From: Sphingomonas aurea
GTDB taxonomy: Bacteria > Pseudomonadota > Alphaproteobacteria > Sphingomonadales > Sphingomonadaceae
Length of the DNA: 64,000 bases
Assembly: GCF_030678875.1 (NCBI RefSeq)
Contig: NZ_JAUUDS010000009.1
Span: forward strand, 62,001-126,000
Direction of reading: 5' to 3'
Positions 4,944-25,699 of this stretch are shown here, one piece after another; position 1 is the first letter of the stretch; each line of letters begins with the position of its first letter. The notes under the pieces are model-generated. The model was not told the origin of the DNA and searched no databases. It saw nothing but the letters and a program-made list of their open reading frames with translations. The position numbers and the translations under genes were made by a program.

Positions 4944-4987
4944 ATAATCGGCCGGATCGATCGGCCGAGCGCGTCTGGAGAGTGTGG

Positions 4988-6574
4988 ATGGACCGTCGTC
5001 GTGCCCGTTGCATGATGTTCGCGCTGTTGCTGGGCGCGGCGGCATCGCCACTCGCCGCGCAGGACAGCCGCTTCGTGCCGACGCCCGCGGGCAAGCCTGC
5101 GCTGCAGGTCGACGGCAAACCGTTCCTGGTGCTCGGCATTCAGCTGAACAACTCCAGCGGCTTTCCCACCGAATTACGCCGCCTGGCCCCCGCAATCGCG
5201 CGCAGCCACGCCAATGTCGTGATGGCGCCGATCGGTTGGGAGACGATCGAACCCGAGGAGGGGCGGTTCGACTGGGCGGTGGTCGATGGGCTGATCGCGG
5301 AGGCGCGCGCGCAGAAGGTGCGGCTGGCGCTGCTGTGGTTCGGCACCTGGAAGAACGCGAACATGAGCTACACCCCCGCCTGGGTGAAGCGCGACACCGC
5401 GCGCTTCCCACGGGTGATGACGGCCGAGGGCAAGCCGATCGAGGTGCTGAGCCCGATCGCAGCCGCCAGCCGCGATGCCGACGCCCGCGCCTTCGCCGCG
5501 CTGATGGCGCACCTGAAGGCGATTGACGGGCGCCAGCGCACGGTGGTGATGGTGCAGGTGCAGAATGAGGCGGGCACGCTGGGTGCCGACCGCGATCATT
5601 CTCCCGCCGCGGAGGCGCTGTTCCGGGCGGCGGTGCCGGCCGACATGCCGGGTGCGAAGCCGGGCAGCTGGACCGCCAGTTATGGCGCCGACGCCCCCGA
5701 GGCGTTCATGGCGTACCACACCGCACGCTATATCGGTGCGGTCGCGGCGGCGGGGAAGCGGGCATACGACCTGCCGCTCTACGCCAATGTCTGGCCGCGC
5801 GAGCAGCCGGGGCTGCTGCGCCCCGGCGACAGCTCGCCCTCGGGCGGGGCGGTGTCGTGGCTGTTGCCGCAGTGGCGGGCGCTGGCGCCGGCGATCGACG
5901 TGATCGGGGTCGACAATTACGATACCAACGTCGCGCCCTATACCGCGATCGCCGAGGCGTATGACGTGCCCGGCAACCCGCTGTTCGTGCCGGAAACCGG
6001 GGGCAGCATGGCGCATGCCCGCCACGCGTTCTGGACGATCGCCCGCCCGCACGCGCTGGGCATCGCCAAGTTCGGGATCGGCGAGGATTTCGGAATGCGC
6101 GACGGGAAGGAGGCCGAGGAGCCGATTGCGCTCGATTACCGCCTGCTGGCCGGTGCCGCACCCGTCCTGATCCCCCTGCGCGACGCCGGCAAGGTGCGTG
6201 CGGCGGTGGAGGAGGACGGCATGGCGAACGTGCCGATGGCGTTCGACGGCGTCGATCTGGTCGCCCGCTTCGGCGACGTGCGCGACGGCTATGGCGGCCC
6301 GCGCGGCCAAGGCAATCGCGACCTGTCGGGGCGGGTGATCGTGGCGCAGGCGGCGCCGGACCGGTTCCTGCTGACCGGCGCATCGGCCAATCTGAAGTTC
6401 GCGACCAAGCTGGGCCAGCCCGGATCGGTGCAGCTGGTCACGGTCGAGCAGGGCCATTTCGAGGACGGGCGCTGGGTGCGCGAGCGGCTGCTGAACGGGG
6501 ACGAGACCGCGTTCGGGCTGATCCTGCCGGGCGAGGGCCGCTCGCTGATGGTGACTGTGCAGGTGAACAAGTGA
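4988..6574 (+). CDS. Exported GH35-like glycoside hydrolase (DUF5597 type)
   Basis: A 528-residue periplasmic or secreted protein with signal peptide (MMFALLLGAAASPLAAQ). The (beta/alpha)8 barrel resembles GH35 beta-galactosidases: GWETIEPEEGRFDW is the early barrel motif, VQNEAG supplies the likely acid/base Glu at about 194, and FVPETGG the likely nucleophile Glu at about 336. The C-terminal part fits the DUF5597 beta domain. The ATG at 4988 is preferred over an in-frame GTG six bases upstream because CTGGAG lies 7 bases before it. It is the first gene of an operon whose next start overlaps this stop (GTGA at 6571-6574). The substrate is probably a beta-galactoside of plant or algal origin; this is inference from its neighbours. 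Confidence 0.85.
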   Translation: MDRRRARCMMFALLLGAAASPLAAQDSRFVPTPAGKPALQVDGKPFLVLGIQLNNSSGFPTELRRLAPAIARSHANVVMAPIGWETIEPEEGRFDWAVVDGLIAEARAQKVRLALLWFGTWKNANMSYTPAWVKRDTARFPRVMTAEGKPIEVLSPIAAASRDADARAFAALMAHLKAIDGRQRTVVMVQVQNEAGTLGADRDHSPAAEALFRAAVPADMPGAKPGSWTASYGADAPEAFMAYHTARYIGAVAAAGKRAYDLPLYANVWPREQPGLLRPGDSSPSGGAVSWLLPQWRALAPAIDVIGVDNYDTNVAPYTAIAEAYDVPGNPLFVPETGGSMAHARHAFWTIARPHALGIAKFGIGEDFGMRDGKEAEEPIALDYRLLAGAAPVLIPLRDAGKVRAAVEEDGMANVPMAFDGVDLVARFGDVRDGYGGPRGQGNRDLSGRVIVAQAAPDRFLLTGASANLKFATKLGQPGSVQLVTVEQGHFEDGRWVRERLLNGDETAFGLILPGEGRSLMVTVQVNK

Positions 6575-8034
6575 AGGCGCTGCTCACCCTGGCCCTCGCC
6601 GCCTCCCCGGTCGCAGCGCAGGAACCTGCGGTCGAGGTGACGCTGCGTCCCGCGATCGACCGCCCCTCGACGGCGTTCGAGGGCTGGGGCACCGCGCTCG
6701 CCTGGTTCGCCGACGTGACCGGCGGCTGGCCGGCGGCAGAACGCGAGCGGCTGGCCGACCTGTTCTATGGCCGGCGCGGACTGGGCTGGACGATCGCACG
6801 CTACAATATCGGCGGCGGCAACGCGGCGGGCACCCCGCCCTATCTGCGGGTCGGCGGCGCGGTGCCGGGGTTCTGGCGGCAGCCGCCGGGCACCACCGGG
6901 CGCGACTGGTGGCGTGCCGACGATGCAGGCATGTGGGACTGGTCGCAGGACGCCAACCAGCGCTGGTGGCTGGATGCGGTGCGCGACCGCGTGTCGCGCC
7001 CGATCTTCGAGGCGTTCTCCAACTCGCCGCCCTGGTTCATGACCGTGTCGGGCCGGGTATCGGGCGCGGAGAAGGCGACCGACGACAACCTCCGCCCCGG
7101 CTTCGAGGCACCGTTCGCGGCCTATCTGGCGCGCAGCGTCGAGGAGTTGCAGCGGCGCCACCGCATCACCTTCCGCACCCTGTCGCCGGTGAACGAGCCG
7201 AACACCGATTACTGGTACGCTGCGAACAAGCAGGAGGGCGCGCACTGGTCGCCGGCGCGGCAGGCGGCGATGATCGACGCGACCGACGCGGCGCTGAAGG
7301 CGCGTGGGCTGAAGACGGTGATCGCGGCGCCGGATGAAACCAACTCTCAGATCTTCGCCCTCGACTGGGCCGGGTATCCGGCGGCGACACGGGCGCGGAT
7401 CGGGCAGCTGAACGTTCACAGCTACGGCACGCTGCACCAGACCGGCGTGCGCGACATCGCGCGCGCCGCGGGCATCCGGCTGTGGATGAGCGAGAACGAC
7501 ACGCCGCTCGACAAGGACCCGGAGGATTTCGCGGCCATGCCCTCCGCCCTCGCCTTTGCCGAGCATGTCGTGGCCGACCTGAAGCGGCTGGAGCCCGCCG
7601 CCTGGGTGTTCTGGCAGGCGGTCGAGGACCTGAGCGCGCGCGACGGTAGCAAGGGATCGAACTGGGGGCTGGTCAAGGCGGACCTGCGCAGCCCGGCGGC
7701 GGGGCCGCATGCGATCCACGTCACCGCCAAATACTGGGCGATGGCGCAGTTCAGCCGCTACATCCGTCCTGGTTACCGGCTGGTGCCGGTCGACGACATG
7801 GACACCGCCGGCGCGCTGTCGGCGGACGGGCGGACGCTGGCACTGGTCCATGTCAATGGCGGCATCACCCCGCGCCGGCTGGTGCTGCCGGCCGGGTGGC
7901 GCGCGCAGCTGGTGGTCACCGACGCCGCGCACCAGGCCGCCTGCGTGCCCGGCACCACCGTGCCGTCGCGATCGATCGCGACGATCGTGCTGACCCGCGG
8001 ACCTGCGAAGGAGAGCCCATGTTCCGTCGACTGA
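6571..8034 (+). CDS. GH30 endo-beta-1,6-galactanase-like glycoside hydrolase
   Basis: A 487-residue exported enzyme beginning at GTG with signal MKALLTLALAASPVAAQ. Family features: the opening AFEGWGTALAWFADVTGGW and ARYNIGGGNA, the acid/base in LSPVNEPN (Glu at about 209) and the nucleophile in WMSEND (Glu at about 308), followed by WVFWQAVEDL. This pattern fits the GH30 group that includes endo-beta-1,6-galactanases, which cut side chains of arabinogalactan. Fungal enzymes define the activity best, so the exact linkage here is inferred. The start overlaps the previous stop by four bases (GTGA), which implies translational coupling with the GH35-like gene. Confidence 0.82.
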   Translation: MKALLTLALAASPVAAQEPAVEVTLRPAIDRPSTAFEGWGTALAWFADVTGGWPAAERERLADLFYGRRGLGWTIARYNIGGGNAAGTPPYLRVGGAVPGFWRQPPGTTGRDWWRADDAGMWDWSQDANQRWWLDAVRDRVSRPIFEAFSNSPPWFMTVSGRVSGAEKATDDNLRPGFEAPFAAYLARSVEELQRRHRITFRTLSPVNEPNTDYWYAANKQEGAHWSPARQAAMIDATDAALKARGLKTVIAAPDETNSQIFALDWAGYPAATRARIGQLNVHSYGTLHQTGVRDIARAAGIRLWMSENDTPLDKDPEDFAAMPSALAFAEHVVADLKRLEPAAWVFWQAVEDLSARDGSKGSNWGLVKADLRSPAAGPHAIHVTAKYWAMAQFSRYIRPGYRLVPVDDMDTAGALSADGRTLALVHVNGGITPRRLVLPAGWRAQLVVTDAAHQAACVPGTTVPSRSIATIVLTRGPAKESPCSVD

Positions 8035-9050
8035 TCGCGCTCGCCGCAGCGCTGCTCGCGCCCGTCGCCGTCGCCGCGAAGCCGGCGCCGCCGACGCCGC
8101 CCGCGCCGCTGCTGATGCCCGACATGCCGCTCCACGATCCGTGGATCGTCACCGACCGGGCGACCGGCACTTATCACCTGTTCACCCGCAACGAGCGGGC
8201 GATGACCAAGGACGCGCGGCTGGGCATCATGGCCTATACCAGCCGCGACCTGAAGCATTGGACGCGGCCGCGCATCGTCTTCGCGCTGCCGCCGGGCACC
8301 TGGGCGAATGACGGTGCCTGGGCGCCGGAGGTGCATCGCTGGCGCGGGCGCTGGTACCTGTTCGCGACCTTCTACAACGACGCGGCGAAGCTGTCCCCGG
8401 TCAGCGGGCGGCAGGCGGTACGGCGCGGCACGATCCTGGCGGTAGCGGACACGCTGGGCGGGCCGTTCGAGGTGGTGCGAAATGCCGCGCCGGTGGTCGA
8501 TCCGGGCACGATGACGCTCGACGGGACGCTCCATGTCGATCCCGCCGGCAAGCCGTGGATGGTCTATGCGCATGAGTGGGTGCAGATCGGCGACGGCACG
8601 ATCGAGGCCGTGCCGCTGACCGATACGCTCGCCGCCGCCGGCCCGCCGCGCCTGCTGTTCAGGGCGTCCGACGCGGACTGGGCCAAGCACGAGGATCTGA
8701 CCGATCCCAAGGCGGGCAACGTCACCGACGGGCCGGAGCTGTTCCGGACCCGGACCGGTACGCTGCTGATGCTCTGGTCGAGCTATGACAAGGACGGGTA
8801 CGTCCAGGCGCAGGCGCGATCGCGGAGCGGCCGGATCGAGGGGCCGTGGGAGCAGCTGCCACCGTTGGTGCGCGCCGACAGCGGGCACGGCATGCTGTTC
8901 CGCCGGCTCGATGGCGCGCTGATGATGGTGCTGCACCGCCCGTTCAACAATGCGCGCGGCAAGCTCTATGCAATGCGCGACCTGGGCGACCGGGTCGAGG
9001 TGGTGCGCGAGGCGACCGAACTGGACGGCGAGACGCGGCCTACGCACTGA
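8019..9050 (+). CDS. GH43 family glycoside hydrolase
   Basis: A 343-residue exported five-bladed propeller enzyme. The signal peptide MFRRLIALAAALLAPVAVAA ends near residue 22. The likely catalytic base is Asp40 in LHDPWIV. GAWAPEVHRW is a conserved blade motif, and Glu240 in TDGPELF is the likely acid. The start follows GAAGGAGA and overlaps the end of the GH30 gene by 16 bases. GH43 enzymes remove arabinose, xylose or galactose. With GH30 and GH35-like partners, an arabinogalactan role (arabinofuranosidase or exo-galactanase) is the best guess. Its end overlaps the end of the convergent psd gene by 11 bases. Confidence 0.85.
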   Translation: MFRRLIALAAALLAPVAVAAKPAPPTPPAPLLMPDMPLHDPWIVTDRATGTYHLFTRNERAMTKDARLGIMAYTSRDLKHWTRPRIVFALPPGTWANDGAWAPEVHRWRGRWYLFATFYNDAAKLSPVSGRQAVRRGTILAVADTLGGPFEVVRNAAPVVDPGTMTLDGTLHVDPAGKPWMVYAHEWVQIGDGTIEAVPLTDTLAAAGPPRLLFRASDADWAKHEDLTDPKAGNVTDGPELFRTRTGTLLMLWSSYDKDGYVQAQARSRSGRIEGPWEQLPPLVRADSGHGMLFRRLDGALMMVLHRPFNNARGKLYAMRDLGDRVEVVREATELDGETRPTH

Positions 9051-9909
9051 CCGTCCGTGCTAGCGCCTGCCCCGCCCGGATCGCCTGCCCCTCGATCAGC
9101 GCCGGGTTCAGCGTCGCAGCCGGCGGCAGGAAGACGATGATCGTCGAGCCGTGCTCGAACCAGCCCATCTCGGCGCCGCGTGCCAAGGCGACGTCGCAGC
9201 GCCGCTTCGCCGGCCCCTGTTCGCGCAGCAGCGCGGGGGTATCGAGAAAGGTGAGCCGGATGCTCGCCACCAGGATCGCGGCAACCGGCACCAGCATCAG
9301 CGGGGTGCCGTCCGCCAGATGCGCGGCGATCACCGCGCGCTCGTTGCGGCAGAACAGCCGCTCGACCCGCTTCAGCGCGATCGGGTTCACGTTCCAGCAG
9401 TCGCCCGACAGATAGGTGACACTGTCGACGATCAGGTCGGCGGGCGCGTGGAAGCGGTGGTACATGCCCGCGGTCAGCCGCAGCGTGACGAACGATCCGT
9501 CGACGAAGGGCGCCGCCAGGGCCGGATCCGGGACCAGCTCGTCCAGCCGGTACGGAAACCCCTTCACCTGATAGAGCGCGCCGTCCTCCACCCGGCCATG
9601 CGCGCCGACGATCGCGTCGCACGGGGCGGCGATCACATCGGGACCGGCGGCGAAGGATCGCGCTCCGGGCACCAGCGCGCGGGTGAAGCCGTCGCGCAGG
9701 CTGCGGAACCGGGTGGTTGCCGCGTCCGACAGGTCGACGCCTGCGAAGAACCGCCACAATGCCACCGCCGGGCGCGCGACCAGCGGATGTTCGACCGCGG
9801 CGATGTGGCCGACCAGCCGCGTCGCGAAACGCCGCGGCAGGCGGTTGGTCAGGAGGAAGTTCAGGTCCTCCTGCATCAGCACGCGCATCAGTGCCTTGGC
9901 GACTGTCAT
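9040..9909 (-). CDS. psd: Phosphatidylserine decarboxylase proenzyme (E. coli type)
   Basis: A 289-residue Psd that makes phosphatidylethanolamine from phosphatidylserine at the inner membrane. It cuts itself at the GST motif to make its pyruvoyl cofactor: FEHGST, cleavage expected between Gly254 and Ser255. The other two members of the self-cleavage triad are visible as Asp98 (APCDAIV) and the His of GMYHRFH (151-154). GDCWNVNP and FCRNERAVI also match the E. coli-type long form, not the short Psd common in alphaproteobacteria. The start (ATG read back from 9909) is 32 bases from the divergent aminotransferase start. Being placed among lipid genes and away from a serine synthase gene (none is visible nearby), it may be a second, specialised Psd. 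That point is inference. Confidence 0.87.
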   Translation of the reverse strand: MTVAKALMRVLMQEDLNFLLTNRLPRRFATRLVGHIAAVEHPLVARPAVALWRFFAGVDLSDAATTRFRSLRDGFTRALVPGARSFAAGPDVIAAPCDAIVGAHGRVEDGALYQVKGFPYRLDELVPDPALAAPFVDGSFVTLRLTAGMYHRFHAPADLIVDSVTYLSGDCWNVNPIALKRVERLFCRNERAVIAAHLADGTPLMLVPVAAILVASIRLTFLDTPALLREQGPAKRRCDVALARGAEMGWFEHGSTIIVFLPPAATLNPALIEGQAIRAGQALARTVSA

Positions 9910-9941
9910 GACGGCGTCACCCGCGCGCGGTGAGAAGCGGC

Positions 9942-11594
9942 ATGAACCCGATACTGACTGGCGCGCTCGGCGCCTCTGCCGCCTTGCTGGTCGCCGCCAA
10001 AGGCCATCAGCGGCTGACCCTGTCGCGCGCCAAGCACCCGTCGCTCGGCGGGCATGTCCGCATGGCGAAACGGGTGGCGGGGCAGATCCCGGCGCTGGCG
10101 CATGCCGCGGACCGTTTCTTTCAGGTCGACGGCGCCGACGACACAGTCGCGGCGCGGCGCGCGGCGGGCTTCGCGCGGCTGGAGGCGCTGTATGCAGGGC
10201 GCTTCGCAAAGACGCTGGCGATGACGCGCGAGGCGCGCACGCTGCTGTCCGACCTGCAATTCACCGGCGCCTACCGCGTCCCCTTCCCCTTCGCAGGCCG
10301 GGTGCGGCAGACGCTGGGCACCGGGGCGTTCCTCCAGCGGTCGGAGGGGCCGGTGGTGATCGATCTCGACGGCAACCAGCTGATCGACCTGACCGGATCC
10401 TACGGCGTCAACCTGTTCGGGTACGAGGCGTACAAGGCGATGATCGCCGAGGGCGCGGCGGCGGTCGGCGAGCTGGGGCCGGTGCTGGGCAGCTATCACC
10501 CGCTCGTCCTGGGCAACGCGCGGCGGCTCTGCGCGCTGTCGGGGATGGACGAGGTCAGCTTCCACATGTCGGGCACCGAGGCGGTGATGCAGGCGGTCCG
10601 GCTGGCCCGCTATCACACGCGGCGCAAGCGGATCGTGCGTTTCGCCGGCGCGTACCACGGCTGGTGGGGCGAGGTGCAGCCCGGCATCGGCAACCCCGTG
10701 CCCGCCGACCGCACGCTGACGCTGGCCGACCAGTCGGAGCGGACGTTGAAGGTGCTGGCCAGCCGCAAGGACATCGCCTGCGTGCTGGTCAACCCGCTCC
10801 AGGCGCTGCATCCCAATGGCGGCGCGCCGTCGGACAGCCAGCTGGTCGACAGCAGCCGCCGCGCGGGTACCGACCTGGCCGCCTATCGCGACTGGCTGCA
10901 CCGGCTGGCGGATACGTGCCGCAAGGCCGGCATCGTCCTGATCATGGACGAGGTGTTCGTCGGCTTCCGCCTCGCGCCCGGCGGGGCGGCGGAGTATTTC
11001 GGGGTGCGGCCGGACCTCGTCACCTATGGGAAGACATTGGGCGGCGGGCTGCCGGTCGGGGTGCTGGCGGGACGCGCGGAGCTGATGAAGCGGTGGCGCG
11101 ACGACCGGCCGCTGGACATCTGCTTCGCGCGCGGCACCTTCAACGCGCACCCCTATGTCATGGGCGCGATGGACGCGTTCCTGCGTCGGCTGGAGACGCG
11201 AGAAACGCGCGCGCTGTACGACGGGCTCGACGCGCGCTGGGATGCACGCGCCGCGCAGTTGAACACCGCGCTGGACGCGGCTGGCGTGCCGGTTCGCGTC
11301 GCGCATCTCCAGACGATCTGGACGATCCTCTACACCCGGCCCGCGGCCTATAACTGGATGCTGCAATATTATCTCCGCGCGGAGGGGCTGGCGCTCAGCT
11401 GGGTGGGGACCGGGCGGCTGATCTTCAGTTTGGACATCGATGACATGCTGTTCGCCGAGATCGTCCGCCGCTTCGCCGCCGCAGCCAGCGCGATGAAGGC
11501 GGACGGCTGGTGGGACACGCCGGCCGGGCTGACCGACAAGGCGCTGCGCCGCGCGATGCTGCGCGGCGCGATACGGATGCGGCTGGGACGGTAA
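9942..11594 (+). CDS. Class III PLP-dependent aminotransferase with N-terminal extension
   Basis: A 550-residue fold-type I, class III enzyme (glutamate-1-semialdehyde aminomutase-like). The PLP lysine is about Lys364 in TYGKTLGGGLPVG. The cofactor Asp is in LIMDEVFVGFR (about 336), and GAYHGWWGEV is the substrate/PLP loop. About 120 residues precede the usual start of this fold, including a hydrophobic stretch (ILTGALGASAALLVAA), so membrane attachment is possible. It is too long for HemL and has no haem genes around it. Neighbours are psd, a DUF962-like protein, pmtA, plcP and agt, so its substrate may be a lipid or a lipid headgroup precursor. That is a hypothesis only. ATG 9942 is chosen over a GTG 12 bases upstream. 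Confidence 0.8.
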   Translation: MNPILTGALGASAALLVAAKGHQRLTLSRAKHPSLGGHVRMAKRVAGQIPALAHAADRFFQVDGADDTVAARRAAGFARLEALYAGRFAKTLAMTREARTLLSDLQFTGAYRVPFPFAGRVRQTLGTGAFLQRSEGPVVIDLDGNQLIDLTGSYGVNLFGYEAYKAMIAEGAAAVGELGPVLGSYHPLVLGNARRLCALSGMDEVSFHMSGTEAVMQAVRLARYHTRRKRIVRFAGAYHGWWGEVQPGIGNPVPADRTLTLADQSERTLKVLASRKDIACVLVNPLQALHPNGGAPSDSQLVDSSRRAGTDLAAYRDWLHRLADTCRKAGIVLIMDEVFVGFRLAPGGAAEYFGVRPDLVTYGKTLGGGLPVGVLAGRAELMKRWRDDRPLDICFARGTFNAHPYVMGAMDAFLRRLETRETRALYDGLDARWDARAAQLNTALDAAGVPVRVAHLQTIWTILYTRPAAYNWMLQYYLRAEGLALSWVGTGRLIFSLDIDDMLFAEIVRRFAAAASAMKADGWWDTPAGLTDKALRRAMLRGAIRMRLGR

Positions 11595-11597
11595 GCG

Positions 11598-12197
11598 TCA
11601 GGCGGTGGCGTGGTCGTCCATCCGCTCGCCCTTCAGCAACCGGCGCGGCGCGCCCTTGTAGAGGCGAAAGTCGCTGAACGGGTCGGTCATGATCTTGGTC
11701 GCCCAGACCAGCCCGGTCTCCACGTCGCGGATGAAGAACAGCTGGATCGACCGGAACGCGATCGCGCCCAGACCCAGGACCAGCCAGCCGATGCCGACAT
11801 GGCGCAGATACGCCTCCCACCCGTCCGGCCGGACCAGCGTGCCGAATAATGTCGGCTCAATCAGCAGCACGACCGGCACCGACGCCCACAGGCTCATCAG
11901 CACCCATTTGCGGAACAGGTTATAGCCGATCTTGATGTCTTCCTTGTGCGCGTGGGTCGCGTCGTTGACATGGTCGTAGCCTTTGGGCTCGAAGAAGAAA
12001 TGCCCCGCCTGCCGGCTGGTCATCGCCACGCCCCATGCCAGCAGGCTGGCGACCGCCGGGTCGATCCACACGATCAGATAGGCGGTGATGAAGGTGCAGG
12101 CGCTGACGAAGTGCAGGCTCTGGTTGACCAGGCTGTGGTGATAGAAACGGTGATCGTCCCACCGTTGTTCGGCGAGCTGGGCGCGAAAGGCGGTCAT
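11598..12197 (-). CDS. Small membrane protein, DUF962/Mpo1-like
   Basis: A 199-residue protein with about four hydrophobic segments (near residues 27-46, 48-60, 100-118 and 130-150). His-rich motifs sit at their edges: DHRFYHHSLVNQSLHF, GHFFFEPKGYDH and NDATHAHKED. The pattern Asn-x-x-x-His followed by Gly-His-x-x-Phe-Glu resembles the DUF962/YGL010w family, whose yeast member Mpo1 is an iron-dependent dioxygenase acting on 2-hydroxy fatty acids. The resemblance was judged by eye and is not certain. Its ATG overlaps the stop of the methyltransferase gene (ATGA, 12194-12197), so the two are translated together. It ends 3 bases from the convergent aminotransferase. A role in hydroxy-fatty-acid or membrane-lipid turnover is inferred. 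Confidence 0.6.
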   Translation of the reverse strand: MTAFRAQLAEQRWDDHRFYHHSLVNQSLHFVSACTFITAYLIVWIDPAVASLLAWGVAMTSRQAGHFFFEPKGYDHVNDATHAHKEDIKIGYNLFRKWVLMSLWASVPVVLLIEPTLFGTLVRPDGWEAYLRHVGIGWLVLGLGAIAFRSIQLFFIRDVETGLVWATKIMTDPFSDFRLYKGAPRRLLKGERMDDHATA

Positions 12198-12853
12198 CGG
12201 GCGGTTACCTCTGCACTGATCTTTGCATAACGGACGAGTGAGAAATGGCCGAGCGGCGGCAGCGGGCGGTGCTCGACCAGCCGCACGTCGCCGCGGGTCG
12301 CCGCCCAATCGGTGTAGCGGCTCCACGGGAATTCGACGCGGAAGCCCAGCCGGCTGGTCACCGGCATCAGCGCCCGCTCGATCGCGCCGCGCAGGCCCTG
12401 CCCCGCACCGACGCGGGTGGTGATGATGATCTCGCCGCCCGGCCGACAGACGCGGACGAACTCGTCGAGCGCCCGTTCCGGGTGCGGGCAGGCGGTGACG
12501 ACATATTGCGCGACGACCACGTCGAAACTGTCGGTGGCGAATTGCAGGTTTTCCGCGTCGCCGACCGCGATCAGCTCGACATGGTCCAGCCGCTGTTCGC
12601 GGACGCGGGCGCGCGCCTTGTCGAGCATCGCGTCGGACAGGTCGACCGCGACGATGCGGTTGCCGGGCGCATATTGGGGCAGCGAGATGCCGGTGCCGAC
12701 CCCGACCTCGATGATCCGCCCGCCGATCCGCTCCGCCGCGGTGATCGCCGCCGATCGCCCGCGTTTGAACACCGGGCCGAACACCAGGTCGTAGACCGGC
12801 GCCCATCGGTCATAGGCACGGGTCACCCCGGCCGTACTCATCTGCGTTGCCAT
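12194..12853 (-). CDS. pmtA: Phosphatidylethanolamine N-methyltransferase-like SAM enzyme
   Basis: A 219-residue class I SAM methyltransferase. It starts MATQMSTAGVTRAYDRWAPV; YDRWAPVYDLVFGPVF and GRSAAI are typical of the PmtA/UbiE-like group. Motif I is IIEVGVGTGISLP (about 47-59), motif II VAVDLSDAML, and FDVVVAQYVVTACPHPE follows. Alphaproteobacterial PmtA methylates phosphatidylethanolamine three times to give phosphatidylcholine. Similar sequences also occur in other methyltransferases, so the exact substrate is likely, not proven. The start is supported by GGAGCGGAGCGCG before the ATG. It leads a two-gene unit with the DUF962-like gene and is divergent from plcP. The shared 196-base region carries a Pho-box-like repeat. 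Confidence 0.75.
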   Translation of the reverse strand: MATQMSTAGVTRAYDRWAPVYDLVFGPVFKRGRSAAITAAERIGGRIIEVGVGTGISLPQYAPGNRIVAVDLSDAMLDKARARVREQRLDHVELIAVGDAENLQFATDSFDVVVAQYVVTACPHPERALDEFVRVCRPGGEIIITTRVGAGQGLRGAIERALMPVTSRLGFRVEFPWSRYTDWAATRGDVRLVEHRPLPPLGHFSLVRYAKISAEVTAR

Positions 12854-12933
12854 CGCGCTCCGCTCCGCCACGTTTCGGATATCGCCCGTATTCGCAGCGG
12901 CTGATTGCAGTTTCGGGTCGCCACGATGACGGG

Positions 12934-12962
12934 GTGACACACTATTGCCACCGATCCGTCAC
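12934..12962 (+). promoter_or_regulatory. Pho-box-like triple direct repeat upstream of plcP
   Basis: Three 7-base units spaced exactly 11 bases apart read GTGACAC (12934-12940), TTGCCAC (12945-12951) and CCGTCAC (12956-12962). The PhoB consensus is a direct repeat of CTGTCAT or CTGTCAC with the same 11-base period; the units match CTGTCAC at 5, 5 and 6 of 7 positions. The site ends 87 bases before the plcP start. PlcP and Agt are known PhoB targets in other alphaproteobacteria. Each unit is imperfect, so the site is a candidate. Confidence 0.5.
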
Positions 12963-13049
12963 GTACATTTTGCCGTACTGACTTGATCGTCGTTTAATGG
13001 GCACCGGCAGTCGAGGAAGCGCATCCCGCTCTGATGGGGAGAAGAGTTC

Positions 13050-13985
13050 ATGGCTTCGCTGCCGATACTGCCGACCGCGCGGCTGCGCGGGTCCGATCCG
13101 GTCCACCGTCTTGCCCGGCAGTTGCCGGCATGGCTGCAGCACGATGGCGACGACGGCACCGCACCGGTGGAGCGGACCCGTTACCGCACCATCTTCATCT
13201 CGGACTCGCACCTGGGCACGGCGGGCGCCAACGCGCAGCTGCTGCTCGATTTCCTGAAGCGGCACGAGTGCGAGACGCTGTACCTGGTCGGCGACATTGT
13301 CGACGGGTGGCAGCTGCGCAAGGGCTGGTACTGGCCGCAGGCGCACAACGATGTCGTCCGCGCCGTGCTGAAGATGGCCAAGCACGGCACCCGCGTGATC
13401 TATGTCCCCGGCAACCATGACGAGCATTTCCGGGACTATGTCGGGCTGGATTTTGGCGGGATCGAGCTGATCGACAGCGACGTCCACGTCACCGCCGACG
13501 GACGGCGGCTGCTGGTGATCCATGGCGACCAGTTCGACAATGTCGTCCTCTACCACCGCTGGCTCGCCTTTCTGGGCGATGGTGCCTACACGCTGCTGCT
13601 CAGGAGCAATCGCTGGGTGAACCGCTGCCGGCGGCTGTTCGGCCTGCCCTATTGGTCGCTCGCCGCGCACATGAAGAAGCGGGTGAAGAACGCCGTCCAG
13701 TTCATCTCGCGCTTCGAGGAGGTCGTCGCCCACGCCGCCGCCGAGCGCGGCGTCGACGGGGTCGTTTGCGGCCACATCCATTCCGCCGAGATCCGCCAGT
13801 TCGGCGACGTCACCTATTACAATGACGGCGACTGGGTGGAGAGCTGCACCGCGCTGGTCGAGGAAGCGTGCGGCGCGATGCGGATCATCGATTGGGCAGA
13901 GACGGTGCGCGCCGAACAGATGCAGGAGCGCGCCCGCCCCCGGCTGGTGGTGACAGAGCCCCTGTCGGCGAGTGAGCCGGCGTGA
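13050..13985 (+). CDS. plcP: PlcP-like metallophosphoesterase (phospholipase C for membrane remodelling)
   Basis: A 311-residue calcineurin-like phosphoesterase, easily mistaken for LpxH. All metal motifs are present: SDSHLG (Asp52, His54), GDIVDGW (Asp82), GNHDEH (Asn122, His123), IHGDQFD (His168) and GHIHS (251-254). The known PlcP of Sinorhizobium and marine bacteria cleaves phosphatidylcholine and phosphatidylethanolamine to diacylglycerol when phosphate is scarce. Two observations support PlcP over LpxH: the next gene, overlapping by four bases, encodes a GT4 enzyme of the kind that glycosylates diacylglycerol, and a Pho-box-like repeat lies upstream. GGGGAGAAGAGTTC precedes the ATG. There is no signal peptide, so it acts on the cytoplasmic leaflet. 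Confidence 0.8.
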   Translation: MASLPILPTARLRGSDPVHRLARQLPAWLQHDGDDGTAPVERTRYRTIFISDSHLGTAGANAQLLLDFLKRHECETLYLVGDIVDGWQLRKGWYWPQAHNDVVRAVLKMAKHGTRVIYVPGNHDEHFRDYVGLDFGGIELIDSDVHVTADGRRLLVIHGDQFDNVVLYHRWLAFLGDGAYTLLLRSNRWVNRCRRLFGLPYWSLAAHMKKRVKNAVQFISRFEEVVAHAAAERGVDGVVCGHIHSAEIRQFGDVTYYNDGDWVESCTALVEEACGAMRIIDWAETVRAEQMQERARPRLVVTEPLSASEPA

Positions 13986-15004
13986 GGATCGCGCTGGTCA
14001 GCGATGCGTGGAGCCCGCAGGTCAACGGCGTCGTCCGCACGCTGACCACCACCGTCGCCGAGCTGCGCCGGCAGGAGCATGCGGTCGAGACGATCACGCC
14101 CGACGGTTTCACCACCGTCCCCTGCCCCAGCTATCCCGAGATCCGGCTGGCGATCGCGGCCGGGCGCGGCGTGCGACGGCGGCTGGAGGCGTTCGCGCCC
14201 GACGCGGTGCACATCGCGACCGAGGGGCCGCTCGGCTGGGCGGCGCGGCGCTGGTGCACGGGCGCGGGTCTGCCCTTCACCACCTCGTTCCACACCCGCT
14301 TTCCTGATTACCTGGCGGTGCGAACCGGGCTGCCGGCCGACCTGTTCTGGGCGTCGCTGCGGCGGTTTCACGGGCGGGCGGCGCGGGTGTTCGTCGCGAC
14401 GCCGATGCTGGCGGCAGAGCTGCGCGCGCGCGGGTTGCCGCACACGCATCTTTGGGGTCGCGGCGTCGACCTGGCGCTGTTCCGGCCAGAGGGCGAGCGG
14501 TTGCCCGAACTGGCCGGAGTGGCGGGGCCGATCCTCCTCCATGTCGGCCGGATCGCACCGGAGAAGAATATCGAGGCGTTCCTGACCACCAACGTTTCCG
14601 GCACCAAGGTGATCGTCGGCGACGGACCCGCGCTGGCGACGCTGCGCCGGCGCTACCCCGACGCGCTGTTCCTCGGCGCGCTGCATGGTGAGCGACTGGC
14701 GGCTGCGTATCGCAGCGCGGACGCGTTCGTCTTCCCCAGCCGCACCGACACGTTCGGACTGGTGATGGCCGAGGCGATCGCCAGCGGCACGGCCGTCGCC
14801 GCCTATCCGGTGGCGGGGCCCCTCGACGTCGTGGAGGCGGACAGCGGCGTGCTGGACGCGGATCTGGCCGTGGCCATCGCGGGCGCGCTGCGGCTCGATC
14901 GCGCCAGGGTGGCGGAGGCGGGTCGGCAGTTCGACTGGGCGCGCTGCACCGGCCAGTTCCTCGACGGGCTGACGCCGTTCAGCGCACTGGCGCAGGCGGC
15001 CTGA
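13982..15004 (+). CDS. GT4 glycosyltransferase, Agt-like diacylglycerol glycosyltransferase
   Basis: A 340-residue GT-B enzyme beginning at a GTG that overlaps the plcP stop (GTGA). The N-terminal acceptor domain opens with ALVSDAWSPQVNGVVRTL, and TSFHTRFPDY follows. The C-terminal nucleotide-sugar domain has LLHVGRIAPEKNIEAF, IVGDGPALATL and FVFPSRTDTFGLVMAEAIAS, which carries the EX7E-type donor site. In other alphaproteobacteria the gene paired with plcP (agt) makes monoglucosyl- or glucuronosyl-diacylglycerol from the diacylglycerol released by PlcP. The coupling here strongly suggests the same two-step conversion. The sugar donor (UDP-glucose or UDP-glucuronate) cannot be read from the sequence. 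Related GT4 mannosyltransferases are the alternative. Confidence 0.8.
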   Translation: MRIALVSDAWSPQVNGVVRTLTTTVAELRRQEHAVETITPDGFTTVPCPSYPEIRLAIAAGRGVRRRLEAFAPDAVHIATEGPLGWAARRWCTGAGLPFTTSFHTRFPDYLAVRTGLPADLFWASLRRFHGRAARVFVATPMLAAELRARGLPHTHLWGRGVDLALFRPEGERLPELAGVAGPILLHVGRIAPEKNIEAFLTTNVSGTKVIVGDGPALATLRRRYPDALFLGALHGERLAAAYRSADAFVFPSRTDTFGLVMAEAIASGTAVAAYPVAGPLDVVEADSGVLDADLAVAIAGALRLDRARVAEAGRQFDWARCTGQFLDGLTPFSALAQAA

Positions 15005-15211: not shown

Positions 15212-16339
15212 TTATTCCTTCTGCCCGAACCATCCCTCCAGCTTCGTCGCCTCGTCCGGGGTGATCGCCATCACCGCGCCGTGCTTGGGCCGCTCGAAAT
15301 TGGTGGCCTTCATCCGCGATCCCGCCTCGTTGAAGCGGCCGATGTTGCGGAAGGTCTTGAAGTCGCTCGTCTCGGCGAAGCCCATATTGTTGGGCGTGAT
15401 CCCGAACACGTCGTACATCAGCACCCAGGTCTTCGTGCCGTGGCGGTGCCACAGGTTCGGTGCTTCGGCCGCCTTCGTTTCCGGATCGACCTTGGCCGGC
15501 TGGGGAACGTAGCCGCTCGTCAGCGTGGTCGACACGGCTTGGCGGATATTGCCCGGCTTCTCGTGCGCGACGTAGAACATGCGGTACTTGCCGCCGACGC
15601 GGGTGATGTCGGCGTCGAGTACGTTCACCTTGGGATCGGGATGATGGAGCAGCTGGCGCGGCGTCGCGGTCAGGCGGCGGAACGCCGGGTCGGCATGGGA
15701 ATAGACCATGAAGTTCGGACCCGCGCCGTGGCGGGTGGTGAAATAGACCATCGGCGCCTTCTTCGCCGCATCCCAGATCACCTCTGGCGCCCAGGCGCAG
15801 CCGGCATCGGCAAAGGCGGGGAACTCGGCCGAGATCGCGACTTTGGCATGGGTCCAGTGGACCAAGTCCCAGGACTTCATGAAGATCATGTTGCGGTTGT
15901 TGCCCCAGCTATACTGGTCGCCCGGCCGCTCCCACTCGGTGGCGCGCAGCCCCTCGCGCTGGGCGAAGATGTGGAGGTCGGTCATCGCCATGTAGAAGGC
16001 GCCGTCGGGCCCGCGCATGATGTATGGATCGCGAATGCCCTTCTGGTCGGCGAGGTCGCGGCCCAGTGCGATCGGCTGGCCACCATTCACGTCGGTGAAG
16101 CTGTACCCGTCGCGCGAGGTCGCGAAATAGAGCGAGTGGGTCTCGTCCTTGAAATAGACCAGCAGATAGGCGCTCCGCTTCGCCTCTGCCGGAACGCGCG
16201 CGTCGCGGGGGCGAACGGCGTCGGCGACGATGGCGATCCGGCGGGCGGCGGCCGGCGCCTGCACCATGTCCGCCACGGCTGGGGCGCCGCCGGCAGCCGC
16301 CAATGCCAGTAACGCCAACGCCTTGATAGCCTTCATCAT
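15212..16339 (-). CDS. Exported GH43-like glycosidase
   Basis: A 375-residue exported beta-propeller protein. The signal peptide (MMKAIKALALLALAAAGGAPAVA) ends near residue 23. Propeller motifs: SLYFATSRDGYSFTD, KGIRDPYIMRGPDG with the likely base Asp, CAWAPEVIWD, and VNVLDADITRVGGKYRMFY. This is the layout of GH43 and related five-bladed families; the assignment to a subfamily is not possible by eye. There are two adjacent start codons (16339 and 16336); both lie downstream of GGGAG, and the second has the better spacing. A perfect hairpin covers that ribosome site (see 16344-16363). The gene stands alone between agt and the phosphate transporter and runs towards agt. Confidence 0.75.
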   Translation of the reverse strand: MMKAIKALALLALAAAGGAPAVADMVQAPAAARRIAIVADAVRPRDARVPAEAKRSAYLLVYFKDETHSLYFATSRDGYSFTDVNGGQPIALGRDLADQKGIRDPYIMRGPDGAFYMAMTDLHIFAQREGLRATEWERPGDQYSWGNNRNMIFMKSWDLVHWTHAKVAISAEFPAFADAGCAWAPEVIWDAAKKAPMVYFTTRHGAGPNFMVYSHADPAFRRLTATPRQLLHHPDPKVNVLDADITRVGGKYRMFYVAHEKPGNIRQAVSTTLTSGYVPQPAKVDPETKAAEAPNLWHRHGTKTWVLMYDVFGITPNNMGFAETSDFKTFRNIGRFNEAGSRMKATNFERPKHGAVMAITPDEATKLEGWFGQKE

Positions 16340-16343
16340 TCCG

Positions 16344-16363
16344 CTCCCGATCGTTATCGGGAG
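16344..16363. promoter_or_regulatory. Perfect hairpin over the ribosome site of the GH43-like gene
   Basis: CTCCCGAT-CGTT-ATCGGGAG is a perfect 8-base stem with a 4-base loop that includes the GGGAG ribosome site of the gene starting at 16339. It could hide the site in the mRNA, or be a protein operator. Both readings are inference. Confidence 0.4.
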
Positions 16364-16389
16364 AGGGTTAGCGGCCACCGATCTATTTG

Positions 16390-18027
16390 TCAGTCAAAAC
16401 CCGCCATGCGCAGGACGGTGAGCAGCAGCAGGTACAGCCCGCCTGACAGCAGCATCGCCACCGGCAGCGTCATCACCCAGGCGAGCGCCATGTTGCGCAC
16501 CGTGCGCGCCTGCAATCCGGCGCCGTTGGCGACGGAGGCGCCGGCGACGCCCGAGGACAGGATGTGCGTGGTCGACACCGGCATGCCGAACCGCACCGCC
16601 AGCAGGATCGTGCCCGCCGCGACCAGCTCGGCCGAGGCGCCCATGCCATAGGTCAGGTGGGTCTTGCCGATCCGCTCGCCGACGGTCACGACGATGCGCC
16701 GCCAGCCGACCATGGTGCCGAGGCCGAGCGCCAGCGCGACGGTCAGCTTGACCCAGCCGGGGATATAGCGGGTGCCATCCTCCAGCCGGCCGGCATAGGC
16801 GTCGACCGCGTCGATCTCGGTCGCGGTCAGCCGCGCCCGCACCGCCTCGTCCTCCTTGGCCAGCCGGGCGGCGTCGAGCACCAGGTACATGTCGTTGCGC
16901 AGGTTCGGCGTCTCGGCGGCGGGCACCGCGCGCAGCGAACCATAATCGTCGATCCGCGCCGCGACATTGCCGGTCAGTGCCGCGAGCGCGGCGAAGTCGC
17001 GCGGCCGCTCGACCCGGCGGACGCGGATCGCGTCGGTCAGGGCGGTGCGCGCCTCCGCAGGCGTCACCCTGACCGATCCGGCCTGCCGCGCAAAGGCGCT
17101 GCCCGCCGCCTGCGCCGATGCGACGAAGGCGGGGGTCGCGGCATCGGGCACGGTGCGATTGAGCGCGTAGGCGGTGGGCGCGCAGCCGATCAGGATCAGC
17201 ATGATGAGACCCATGCCCTTCTGCCCGTCGTTGCTGCCATGCGCGAAGCTGACCGCGGTGCAGGTGAAGACCAAGAGCGCGCGGATGCCGCGCGGCGGCG
17301 GCTGGTTGCCGCGCGGCTCGCGGTAGAGCGCGGGGTCGGGGGCCAGCCGCTTCATGACGAGCAGCAGCACGAATGCGGCGGCGAAGCCGACCAGCGGGCT
17401 GAACAGCAGCGCGGCCAGCACCTTTTCCGCCTGCGTCCAGTCGACGCCGGCGGTCCCGCCGCGGCCCGACAGCAGCTGGTTGGCGACACCGACGCCTAGG
17501 ATCGATCCGATCAGCGCGTGGCTCGACGAATTGGGCAGACCGACCCACCAGGTCGCCAGATTCCACGTCACCGCCGCCAGCAACAGCGCGAAGATCATCG
17601 CATAGCCGCCGGCGCTGCCGACGTGCAGGACCAGGTCGACGGGCAGCAGCGTGACGATCGCATAGGCGACCGTCCCCGACGACAGCAGCACGCCCAGGAA
17701 GTTGAACGCCCCCGACCACACCACCGCCAGCGGCGCCGGCATCGAGTGGGTATAGATCACCGTCGCCACCGCGTTGGCGGTATCGTGGAAGCCGTTGACG
17801 AACTCGAACCCCAGCGCGATCAGCAGTGCGAGGCCCAGGAACAGGAAGACGCCGGTCGCCAGCTGCTCGCCGACCTGCGCGGTGTCGGCAACGATGCTGA
17901 TCCCGGCATAGGCGAGGCCGCCGACGATCAGCGCCGCGAACAGCCAGCGGCCGGCCGGATGCGTCGGCGCGTCGAGCGCCGGTCCTTTCGAAAGGGGTGC
18001 ATCAGCGATCACCGCGGTACTGGACAT
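16390..18027 (-). CDS. pit: PiT-family inorganic phosphate transporter
   Basis: A 545-residue integral membrane protein with the PiT signatures: GFEFVNGFHDTANAVATVIY near residue 75, PNSSSHALIGS, SFAHGSNDGQKGMG in the middle, and MPVSTTHI near the C-terminus. PiT proteins import metal-phosphate with protons at low affinity. Between the two halves lies a long soluble loop (about residues 300-420), as is usual for the E. coli-like type. The start is set by GGAGGAACG before the ATG. It lies 43 bases downstream of glpD on the same strand, so the two could be co-transcribed. With plcP-agt 2.4 kb away, phosphate handling is a theme of this region. Confidence 0.92.
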   Translation of the reverse strand: MSSTAVIADAPLSKGPALDAPTHPAGRWLFAALIVGGLAYAGISIVADTAQVGEQLATGVFLFLGLALLIALGFEFVNGFHDTANAVATVIYTHSMPAPLAVVWSGAFNFLGVLLSSGTVAYAIVTLLPVDLVLHVGSAGGYAMIFALLLAAVTWNLATWWVGLPNSSSHALIGSILGVGVANQLLSGRGGTAGVDWTQAEKVLAALLFSPLVGFAAAFVLLLVMKRLAPDPALYREPRGNQPPPRGIRALLVFTCTAVSFAHGSNDGQKGMGLIMLILIGCAPTAYALNRTVPDAATPAFVASAQAAGSAFARQAGSVRVTPAEARTALTDAIRVRRVERPRDFAALAALTGNVAARIDDYGSLRAVPAAETPNLRNDMYLVLDAARLAKEDEAVRARLTATEIDAVDAYAGRLEDGTRYIPGWVKLTVALALGLGTMVGWRRIVVTVGERIGKTHLTYGMGASAELVAAGTILLAVRFGMPVSTTHILSSGVAGASVANGAGLQARTVRNMALAWVMTLPVAMLLSGGLYLLLLTVLRMAGFD

Positions 18028-18070
18028 CGTTCCTCCGGCCCGACCCCGACCGCCATCGGTCGCAAGTCGG

Positions 18071-19570
18071 TCAGCTCGCGGATATGTCGGATTTATGATG
18101 ACTCGATGACAGTGGATAGGTGGCGAGGCAGTCGGCGAGCCGCTCGGCGGTGCCGGGCGGGACATGCAGTCCCAATTTGCTACGCCGCCACAGCACATCC
18201 TCCGCGGTCCGCGCCCACTCTTTCGCGACGAGATAGTCCAGTTCGGCGGTGTGCAGCCCGCCGCCGAGGTCCGGCCCCAGATCGCCGTCGAGGATCGCCG
18301 AAACCCGCGTGCCATAGGCGCGGCACAGGCGGCGGAGCAGCGGGCGTGGCACGTCCGGATGCTCCGCCTCCACGCCGCGCAGGAAGGCGTCGAAATCCGC
18401 CATGTCGCCGCCCGGCAGCGCCGCGCCCGCGGTCCATGCCGGCGCCATCGGCACGAGCGGCGCCAGCTCCGCCAGCGCATGTTCGGCGAGCCGGCGATAG
18501 GTGGTGATCTTGCCGCCATAGATGCTCAGCAGCGGCGCGCGGCCCACGCCGGCATCCAGGTCGAGCACATAGTCGCGCGTCACCGCCGACGCGCTCTTCG
18601 CCTTGTCGTCGTGGAGCGGGCGGATGCCGGCATAGCTCCAGACGATGTCGGCCGCGGTTAGGTCGCGGGTGAAATAGCGGGCGATGGTGGCGAGCAGATA
18701 CTCGGTCTCGCCCGCGTCGATCGCGGCCGGGCCGGGCGCGGCGGTCCAGGGCTGGTCGGTGGTGCCGACCAGCGTGAACGCGCCCTCATAGGGGATGGCG
18801 AACACGATGCGCCGGTCCGGGTTCTGGAGCATGAAGGCGTGATCGCCCGGATAGAGGCGCGGCACGACGATGTGGCTGCCCTTCACCAGCCTTATGCCAT
18901 GATCGTGCGCCGCGCCGCCGCTGCGCCCCAGCACGTCCGCGACCCAGGGGCCGGCGGCGTTGACCAGCGCGCGGGCGGCGACGGCATGGGTGCCGGCCGC
19001 ATCCTCGATCGTGACGGTCCAGCCCTCGCCTTCGCGCCGCGCGGCGATCAATCGCGTGCGGGTGCGGATCGTGGCGCCCCGCTCCGCCGCGTCGAGCGCG
19101 TTCAGCACGACGAGCCGGCTGTCCTCGACCCAGCAGTCCGAATAGACGAACGCCCTGCCCGCGCGATCCGCCAGCCCCTCGCCCAGACCGGCCGACAGCG
19201 GCACCGTCTCGGTACCCGGCAGCCGCCTGCGCCCGCCGAGATGATCGTAGAGGAACAGCCCCAGCCGCACCATCCAGGCCGGGCGCGGCGAGCGGGTCTG
19301 CGGCAGGACGAAGCGCAGCGGCCAGATGATGTGCGGTGCCATCGCCCACAGCCGCTCGCGCTCGGCCAGCGCCTCGTGGACCAGCCGGAACTCGCCATAT
19401 TCCAGATAGCGCAGCCCGCCATGGATCAGCTTGGTCGACGCCGAGGAGGTGTGGCCGGCCAGATCGTCCTGCTCGACCAGCAGCACCGACAGCCACCGCC
19501 CGGCCGCGTCGCGCGCGATCCCGGCGCCGTTGATGCCGCCGCCGACGATCAGCAGGTCGTACCGGTCCAT
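18071..19570 (-). CDS. glpD: Glycerol-3-phosphate dehydrogenase (FAD)
   Basis: A 499-residue flavoprotein oxidising glycerol-3-phosphate to dihydroxyacetone phosphate and passing electrons to quinone at the inner membrane. The FAD-binding motif is YDLLIVGGGINGAGIARDAA at the start. STKLIHGGLRYLE, AAGPWVADV, GTTDQPW and YAGIRPL are conserved family blocks, and the C-terminal domain carries EWARTAEDVLWRRSKLGLH. The start at 19570 gives the normal N-terminus, with AGGAG 12 bases upstream; a start at 19591 would add seven residues and lacks a ribosome site. It is divergent from glpK with a 75-base gap, so both are probably controlled together. Confidence 0.95.
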   Translation of the reverse strand: MDRYDLLIVGGGINGAGIARDAAGRWLSVLLVEQDDLAGHTSSASTKLIHGGLRYLEYGEFRLVHEALAERERLWAMAPHIIWPLRFVLPQTRSPRPAWMVRLGLFLYDHLGGRRRLPGTETVPLSAGLGEGLADRAGRAFVYSDCWVEDSRLVVLNALDAAERGATIRTRTRLIAARREGEGWTVTIEDAAGTHAVAARALVNAAGPWVADVLGRSGGAAHDHGIRLVKGSHIVVPRLYPGDHAFMLQNPDRRIVFAIPYEGAFTLVGTTDQPWTAAPGPAAIDAGETEYLLATIARYFTRDLTAADIVWSYAGIRPLHDDKAKSASAVTRDYVLDLDAGVGRAPLLSIYGGKITTYRRLAEHALAELAPLVPMAPAWTAGAALPGGDMADFDAFLRGVEAEHPDVPRPLLRRLCRAYGTRVSAILDGDLGPDLGGGLHTAELDYLVAKEWARTAEDVLWRRSKLGLHVPPGTAERLADCLATYPLSSSHHKSDISAS

Positions 19571-19645
19571 GCTGTGCGCTGCTCCTGTCATTGACGCCGA
19601 CGCAAAAACGCATGAGCCTCACGATCGGAACAGCGAGGGAGCGTC

Positions 19646-23676: not shown

Positions 23677-23718
23677 AACGCTTTCGTCTTTCCGGTCGGG
23701 ATCCGCGACACTGGCGCC

Positions 23719-24999: not shown

Positions 25000-25008
25000 G
25001 GCCAGGCC

Positions 25009-25686
<678 letters not shown>

Positions 25687-25699
25687 AGGGACCGCACCG

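Follow-up and report, generated by a model that had tools for sequence, protein, structure and literature searches.

The stretch of DNA considered here, hereafter the window, comprises 64,000 nucleotides of Sphingomonas aurea (contig NZ_JAUUDS010000009.1, positions 62,001 to 126,000), and our subject is an island of six adjacent genes at window positions 9040-15004 which a first-pass annotation had proposed to encode an undescribed lipid pathway. All six reading frames were found at the positions it gave. A gene for a phosphatidylserine decarboxylase (Psd)-like protein, the second Psd of the genome, lies on the reverse strand (9040-9909; PS_Dcarbxylase, 170.9 bits). Divergent from it on the forward strand is a class III aminotransferase of 554 residues (AT; 9930-11594, likely start ATG 9942), and the promoter gap between the two holds a Pho-box-like site (9903-9920, forward strand) that matches 11 of 14 consensus positions and overlaps the Psd start codon. 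There follow, on the reverse strand, a DUF962/Mpo1-like membrane protein, the partner of AT (11598-12197; PF06127, E = 0.001), and a PmtA-like N-methyltransferase (MT; 12194-12940) and, on the forward strand, a PlcP-like metallophosphoesterase (13050-13985; family profile match) directly followed by an Agt-like GT4 glycosyltransferase (13982-15004; GT4 family match). The DUF962 and MT genes overlap by 4 bases, as do those of PlcP and Agt, which suggests that translation is coupled within each pair.

The island was compared with the best 80 of 514 relatives in public genomes (80 loci, 1.26 Mb). Psd was divergent next to AT in all 80 loci, and DUF962 was the convergent gene after AT in all 75 loci that extend 1.5 kb or more beyond it; the five remaining loci are cut short by the end of the contig. 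It is clear that the conserved unit is Psd, AT and DUF962, and that MT, PlcP and the glycosyltransferase vary by lineage. Rather than six genes, the unit is this three-gene core, which alphaproteobacteria extend by MT and some of them also by PlcP/Agt or a different glycosyltransferase; six genes as one fixed unit was rejected, with all of them within the fetched DNA of just 18 of the 80 loci, in two of which (L087 and L099) PlcP and Agt are placed otherwise. Nor does the AT/DUF962 pair occur apart from lipid genes in most relatives, which would have spoken against a lipid role; it is paired with Psd in every uncut locus examined. When the loci were divided by record title into 67 alphaproteobacterial and 13 beta/gamma loci, MT was found in 62 of the former, the missing five being contig-cut, and in none of the latter, all 13 of which have a GT4 gene. 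The titles of L077 (Bacillus sp. 2B10) and of the metagenome-assembled genomes L102 and L107 (Bordetella parapertussis) clash with their gene content, and these records may be mislabelled.

The pairing of AT with DUF962 was also scored across 398 genomes drawn once from the phylum, with AT called at E <= 1e-60 and DUF962 at E <= 1e-5. Each was present in 25 genomes, and 24 of the 26 genomes holding either held both (Fisher 3e-36); the two exceptions are contig-cut, G422 ending 1.4 kb after AT and G550 inside the glycosyltransferase gene. In families f38 and f40, which lie outside the window's class, the six loci that are complete at both ends (L166-L170 and L172) carry AT, glycosyltransferase, Psd and DUF962 in this order, all on one strand. 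Since the core order recurs in distant classes, the grouping of these genes is not due to chance. The f38/f40 glycosyltransferase forms the C-terminus of an 893-958-residue protein in the five loci with listed frames (L168 3674-6352 and L172 7611-10484 among them). The N-terminus of this fusion gave no Pfam match in L168 or L172 and no PDB match better than E = 0.29 in L168; by eye we take that of L168 to be PHP phosphoesterase-like (DLHCH, TNH, HP, SDDH), with no database match to back it, and the fusion may be the single-protein equivalent of PlcP and Agt. In genome G619 there is a second copy of DUF962 (L178 7524-8168), which has no Psd with it and adjoins another aminotransferase; this neighbour reads as acetylornithine type, and the locus was not counted in support of the trio.

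Psd proved to be an altered second copy belonging to the core. Its membership of the family is secure (PF02666, 170.9 bits against a cut-off of 22), and the catalytic H151 and autocleavage residues G254-S255-T256 are invariant in 19 aligned rows. The possibility that it is the sole phosphatidylethanolamine (PE) enzyme was rejected, as a second Psd copy lies elsewhere in the genome; this other Psd is, by reading, of a short type and beside a pssA-like gene. At least two Psd matches were present in 52 of 53 genomes with AT (in G391 the second is a 22-bit partial match), and a tree built from 13 Psds of islands and 11 from elsewhere placed the island proteins in a clade of their own (98/90, midpoint root). 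The described enzyme closest to them, that of E. coli (PDB 7cnw, 6l06), shares the family, the YHR histidine and the GST autocleavage site. According to PMC7952604, the side chains of E. coli Tyr137 and Ser166 hold the substrate phosphate, Asp142 aids autocleavage and Leu252 contacts an acyl chain. When residues were aligned via the YHR motif, Tyr137 was replaced by Arg, Asp142 by Met and Ser166 by Asn in all 75 readable rows of 77 island Psds, the other two lacking the YHR motif; the window residues are Arg144, Met149 and Asn173 (A3 numbering), and its Psd reads HGST in place of LGST. Similarly, the LGST sequence, with its Leu, has become HGST in 75 of the 77 rows, with one QGST and one row without the motif. 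All six non-island E. coli-type Psds retain Tyr, Asp, Ser and LGST; four of the 11 non-island proteins have no motif. The island Psd thus lacks the E. coli-like phosphate-contact side chains (Tyr137 and Ser166) together with LGST, and is probably no ordinary PE gene.

AT is a member of the class III family (PF00202, 122 bits against a cut-off of 30.5), and its extra N-terminal part, noticed in the first-pass annotation, is real: the Aminotran_3 match is confined to residues 133-517 of 554, so that about 130 N-terminal residues are additional. In all 81 rows this part opens with a run of hydrophobic residues, probably a membrane anchor, which is followed by a conserved segment, LSRAKH..GH.R; an anchor of this kind would argue for a lipid substrate. 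The pyridoxal phosphate (PLP) lysine, K368, is invariant. The nearest PDB entry by sequence is 6kfm, the mycosubtilin AMT domain (E = 7.6e-48), and the same entry is closest to the AT model (28% identity, TM 0.81 on target), with the HemL type next; confidence in the model is moderate (pLDDT 77). NCBIfam places glutamate-1-semialdehyde aminomutase models on top, all below cut-off, and AT scored 178 bits against the HemL equivalog TIGR00713 where 527 are required. These AMT and HemL-type enzymes are the best matches by sequence and model and share the PLP lysine, but AT differs from them in its anchored N-terminal extension and its low identity. In locus L015 (genome G217) the AT gene carries one in-frame TGA, a possible pseudogene or sequencing error.

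The third member of the core resembles yeast Mpo1, the 2-hydroxy fatty acid dioxygenase of the DUF962 family, by a weak family match that extends to every member scanned: PF06127 is matched at E <= 0.1 (best 2.1e-5) by each of the 21 proteins in alignment A2, that of the window among them. Residues H16, H20, H29, H66 and E70 are invariant and would suit metal binding, and the protein is a putative Fe(II) oxygenase. It differs from Mpo1 in that the window copy lies below the family cut-off and that its conserved C-terminal half (KIxTDPFxD) falls outside the Pfam match. A fold search with it against the PDB gave no useful match.

Around the core, MT is closest among solved structures to the PE N-methyltransferase 8ys9 (E = 2.3e-41) and reached 120.5 of the 390 bits required by the PmtA equivalog NF045882. 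In known systems PlcP converts phospholipid to diacylglycerol and Agt converts diacylglycerol to glycolipid; the solved relatives of the window's PlcP-like protein are of LpxH type only (E >= 8e-6). PlcP was present in the fetched DNA of 19 of the 60 alphaproteobacterial loci with 3 kb past AT. In the window's family, 32 of 298 genomes carry AT (of 33 matches one was set aside, G235, whose 29% identity fell within a frame of 2712 residues); PlcP was found in all 32, compared to 184 of the 266 genomes without AT (Fisher 1.7e-5), and no more than 10 kb separated it from AT in 19 or more of the 32, a lower bound as the PlcP positions of G014, G079 and G103 are not in the count. The family genomes are related, so that such p-values overstate independence. 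Further lipid and phosphate genes were found at the core in individual relatives: OlsF beside it in L168 (816 bits, cut-off 620) and a PF13444 gene in the same place in L169; LplT in L173 (511 bits, cut-off 297); UDP-glucose dehydrogenase in L166 and, by reading, L174; a BtaA-type DUF3419 gene in L102 and L106; PhoU in L110; and polyphosphate kinase in L102.

Phosphate control of the island was assessed with the Pho-box consensus CTGTCAT-N4-CTGTCAT, a strong site being one that matches at least 12 of 14 positions, and island promoters being taken as the gap between Psd and AT and the 200-base stretch ahead of MT/DUF962. The 80 loci contain 32 strong sites, 25 of which are in island promoters, although these make up 1.85% of the bases. 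Eleven of the 25 are one sequence common to near relatives; with distinct sequences only, 15 of 22 sites lie inside island promoters (binomial 1.5e-21). Five scrambled motifs gave in total 4 sites inside and 9 outside. A random-window test was confounded by composition and start codons, and was replaced by shuffles and by permuted and scrambled motifs. The shuffle test gave a mean tail value of 0.26 against an expected 0.5 (25 of 36 chosen gaps were long enough); permuted motifs reached the real score in 1 of 300 cases in the 25 gaps, this one being a frame-shifted copy, and in 0 of 60 for 74 upstream regions. By the confounded random-window test the regions upstream of PlcP, taken from 21 loci, averaged a tail value of 0.17.

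Bacteria that are short of phosphate exchange their phospholipids for glycolipids, for betaine lipids or for lipids of ornithine type. The betaine lipids of BtaA/BtaB and the ornithine lipids of OlsB/OlsF are, like the product proposed below, phosphorus-free, amine-bearing and tied to phosphate limitation; these pathways differ from the island in that the window genome has no match to BtaA (PF11899) or to PF13444 (OlsB/OlsF/GlsB-type). Their distribution was compared in 80 genomes of the family, namely the 32 with AT and 48 without it that were picked for completeness from the 266. BtaA was found in 0 of 32 with AT and 13 of 48 without; a strong PF13444 match (E 1e-20 or better) in 1 of 32 and 13 of 48; and either in 1 of 32 compared to 24 of 48 (p = 2.9e-6). 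Counted by genus, either gene was present in 1 of 16 with AT and 22 of 44 without (p = 0.0015). Among five relatives from the window's own genus, three have BtaA without AT and two have neither; the window genome has AT without BtaA. Outside the family, BtaA was absent from all 37 genomes scored (20 with AT, 17 without). The AT-less controls came from f38 (16 genomes) and f4 (one), f9, f43, f66 and f40 supplying none, and the fragment G422 was left out. Strong PF13444 was found in none of nine f9 genomes with AT.

These results uphold the idea of an undescribed lipid pathway, in which the hydroxylated acyl chain or recycled headgroup suggested in the first-pass annotation may or may not have a part. 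Remodelling under phosphate starvation is indicated by the Pho-box-like sites, by the altered Psd and, within the window's family, by the rarity of btaA and olsB-type genes among carriers of the island. In our judgement there is about an even chance that the island is an undescribed PhoB-type, phosphate-starvation module of membrane-lipid remodelling that makes an amine-bearing, probably phosphorus-free lipid. What the comparison itself shows is a core that is conserved, Pho-box-like sites in promoters across the group, a Psd with altered residues and, in one family, the exclusion of other lipid genes; each chemical step of the trio, the sequence in which the steps occur and the lipid that results are what we infer from it. 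In such a module PlcP would strip phospholipids to diacylglycerol, which Agt would glycosylate, and the trio would act jointly on a membrane-held lipid to give a headgroup that bears an amine and is probably free of phosphorus. The anchored AT would add or move an amino group, the Mpo1-like protein would prepare a carbonyl or trim a carbon, the island Psd, dispensing with the customary contacts to phosphate, would decarboxylate a headgroup of amino-acid type and, in the alphaproteobacteria, the PmtA-like MT would methylate the resulting amine. A phosphorus-free amino-acid headgroup is favoured because the promoters look Pho-controlled and Psd is changed at its phosphate contacts.

Several observations weigh against this reading. 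On the side of regulation, the window's own site reaches just 11 of 14 positions and the best in the MT/PlcP gap 9 of 14; a single one of the five scrambled motifs accounted for 3 of the inside sites and 1 outside; and the Pho consensus overlaps start codons, which add to the score, so that the case is strong when the group is taken as a whole but modest in the window itself. Turning to the enzymes, the DUF962-like protein scores 19.6 bits where the PF06127 gathering score is 24, and the solved relative of MT is named for PE, a phospholipid. The non-island Psd of L186 has Arg at 137 with Asp and Ser retained, and Arg at this position is found in 15% of Psds according to PMC7952604; phosphate binding may therefore be kept, and phosphatidylserine may be the substrate. 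The exclusion of other lipid genes is also incomplete. Weaker PF13444 matches only were seen in five genomes with AT and two without, and with these included the family count weakens to 6 of 32 compared to 25 of 48 (p = 0.0024). Strong PF13444 was present in the AT-carrying genomes of f4 (2/2), f43/f66 (3/3) and f38/f40 (6/6), and within f38 it was commoner with AT (5/5) than without (7/16; p = 0.04), from which it follows that the module is no replacement for ornithine lipids everywhere. Finally, a BtaA-type gene (DUF3419) with a methyltransferase adjoins the core itself in L102 and L106, the DUF3419 being scanned in L106 and the methyltransferase in L102.

The best surviving alternative, which we nevertheless hold to be unlikely, is that the trio serves a phospholipid headgroup: Psd would make extra PE and MT methylated PE, and AT and DUF962 would dismantle the ethanolamine headgroup, PE or phosphoethanolamine passing to an aldehyde and on to oxidation, and feeding the recycling of diacylglycerol and phosphate with PlcP. 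Class III aminotransferases act on terminal amines, MT is PmtA-like, Psd retains its YHR histidine and autocleavage GST, and PlcP accompanies AT throughout the family, all of which would fit. However, the phosphate contacts of Psd are changed, a Pho-linked second Psd that made phospholipid under starvation would be wasteful, and no phospho-lyase was among the AT matches listed. Less probable again is a route through the acyl chain, in which an AMT-like AT would aminate a beta-keto acyl chain, DUF962 would shorten or hydroxylate the chain and Psd would serve the headgroup separately, the product being an amino-acyl lipid. The AMT domain is indeed the best PDB match of AT by both sequence and model, and Mpo1 acts on 2-hydroxy fatty acids; on the other hand the identity to 6kfm is low, NCBIfam ranks aminomutase models first, albeit below cut-off, the AT model is of moderate confidence, and the strict tie to an altered Psd is left unexplained. 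That the trio is one unit of ordinary membrane upkeep without phosphate control, clustered by chance or loosely with PlcP and Agt, agrees with the modest share of alphaproteobacterial loci that hold PlcP and with the weak site of the window, but is the least probable of the three given the enrichment of promoter sites, the association of PlcP with AT-carrying genomes and the recurrence of glycosyltransferase partners in 13 of 13 beta/gamma loci.

Of described systems, a phosphate-starvation module with this core is most akin to PlcP-Agt remodelling (PMC4796936, PMC8528852, as far as their available text extends), in which phospholipids are replaced under phosphate limitation by monoglycosyldiacylglycerol (MGDG) and glucuronic acid diacylglycerol (GADG); the tandem of PlcP and GT4 and, apparently, the Pho-box sites near plcP are common to both. 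It differs in the trio: none of the six plcP contexts described in the main text of PMC4796936 names Psd, AT and DUF962 together, the words decarboxylase and aminotransferase being absent from that main text, and the available text of PMC8528852 mentions neither phosphatidylserine decarboxylase nor aminotransferase. No paper describing the trio was found in the open-access literature searched (DUF962, lipid context), so far as its accessible text goes; the parts belong to known families, and what appears undescribed in that literature is the way they are combined, together with the promoter sites and the Psd signature.

Beyond the island lie genes for a PHO4 phosphate transporter (16390-18519, reverse), glpD (18071-19591, reverse) and glpK (19646-21145, forward), so that phosphate and glycerol-3-phosphate genes are close by. 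Glycoside hydrolase genes occur on both sides, GH42/DUF5597 and GH30 at 4982-9050 (forward) on the near flank and a GH43/GH32-like gene at 15212-16378 (reverse) on the far flank, as if the island were inserted in a region for polysaccharide use. Further along is an NtrX-like response regulator (22402-23742, reverse), whose best sigma-54 domain match covers just 57 of 168 positions and which is perhaps degenerate, with an adjoining kinase at 21285-22439, and a MacA/MacB/outer-membrane efflux set (23719-29513, forward); in NCBIfam the efflux adaptor and ATPase come closest to DarC and DarD, models for darobactin export, with scores under the cut-off.

All carriers of the island in the window's family have PlcP, and 31 of 32 have neither BtaA nor a strong OlsB-type match; the module is a specific and testable candidate for the missing amine-bearing lipid in these PlcP-bearing genomes. 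Somewhat short of even odds, we suggest more tentatively that the product of the trio is a membrane lipid of a new class, free of phosphorus and headed by ethanolamine or an amine, that substitutes for PE and, where MT takes part, for methylated PE, that it is built by a Psd relative without the phosphate site, and that this lipid replaces diacylglyceryltrimethylhomoserine (DGTS) and ornithine lipids in many Sphingomonas relatives. If true, a relative of phosphatidylserine decarboxylase would have been turned to another lipid, and a bacterial DUF962 protein would be placed by the trio in a functional setting.

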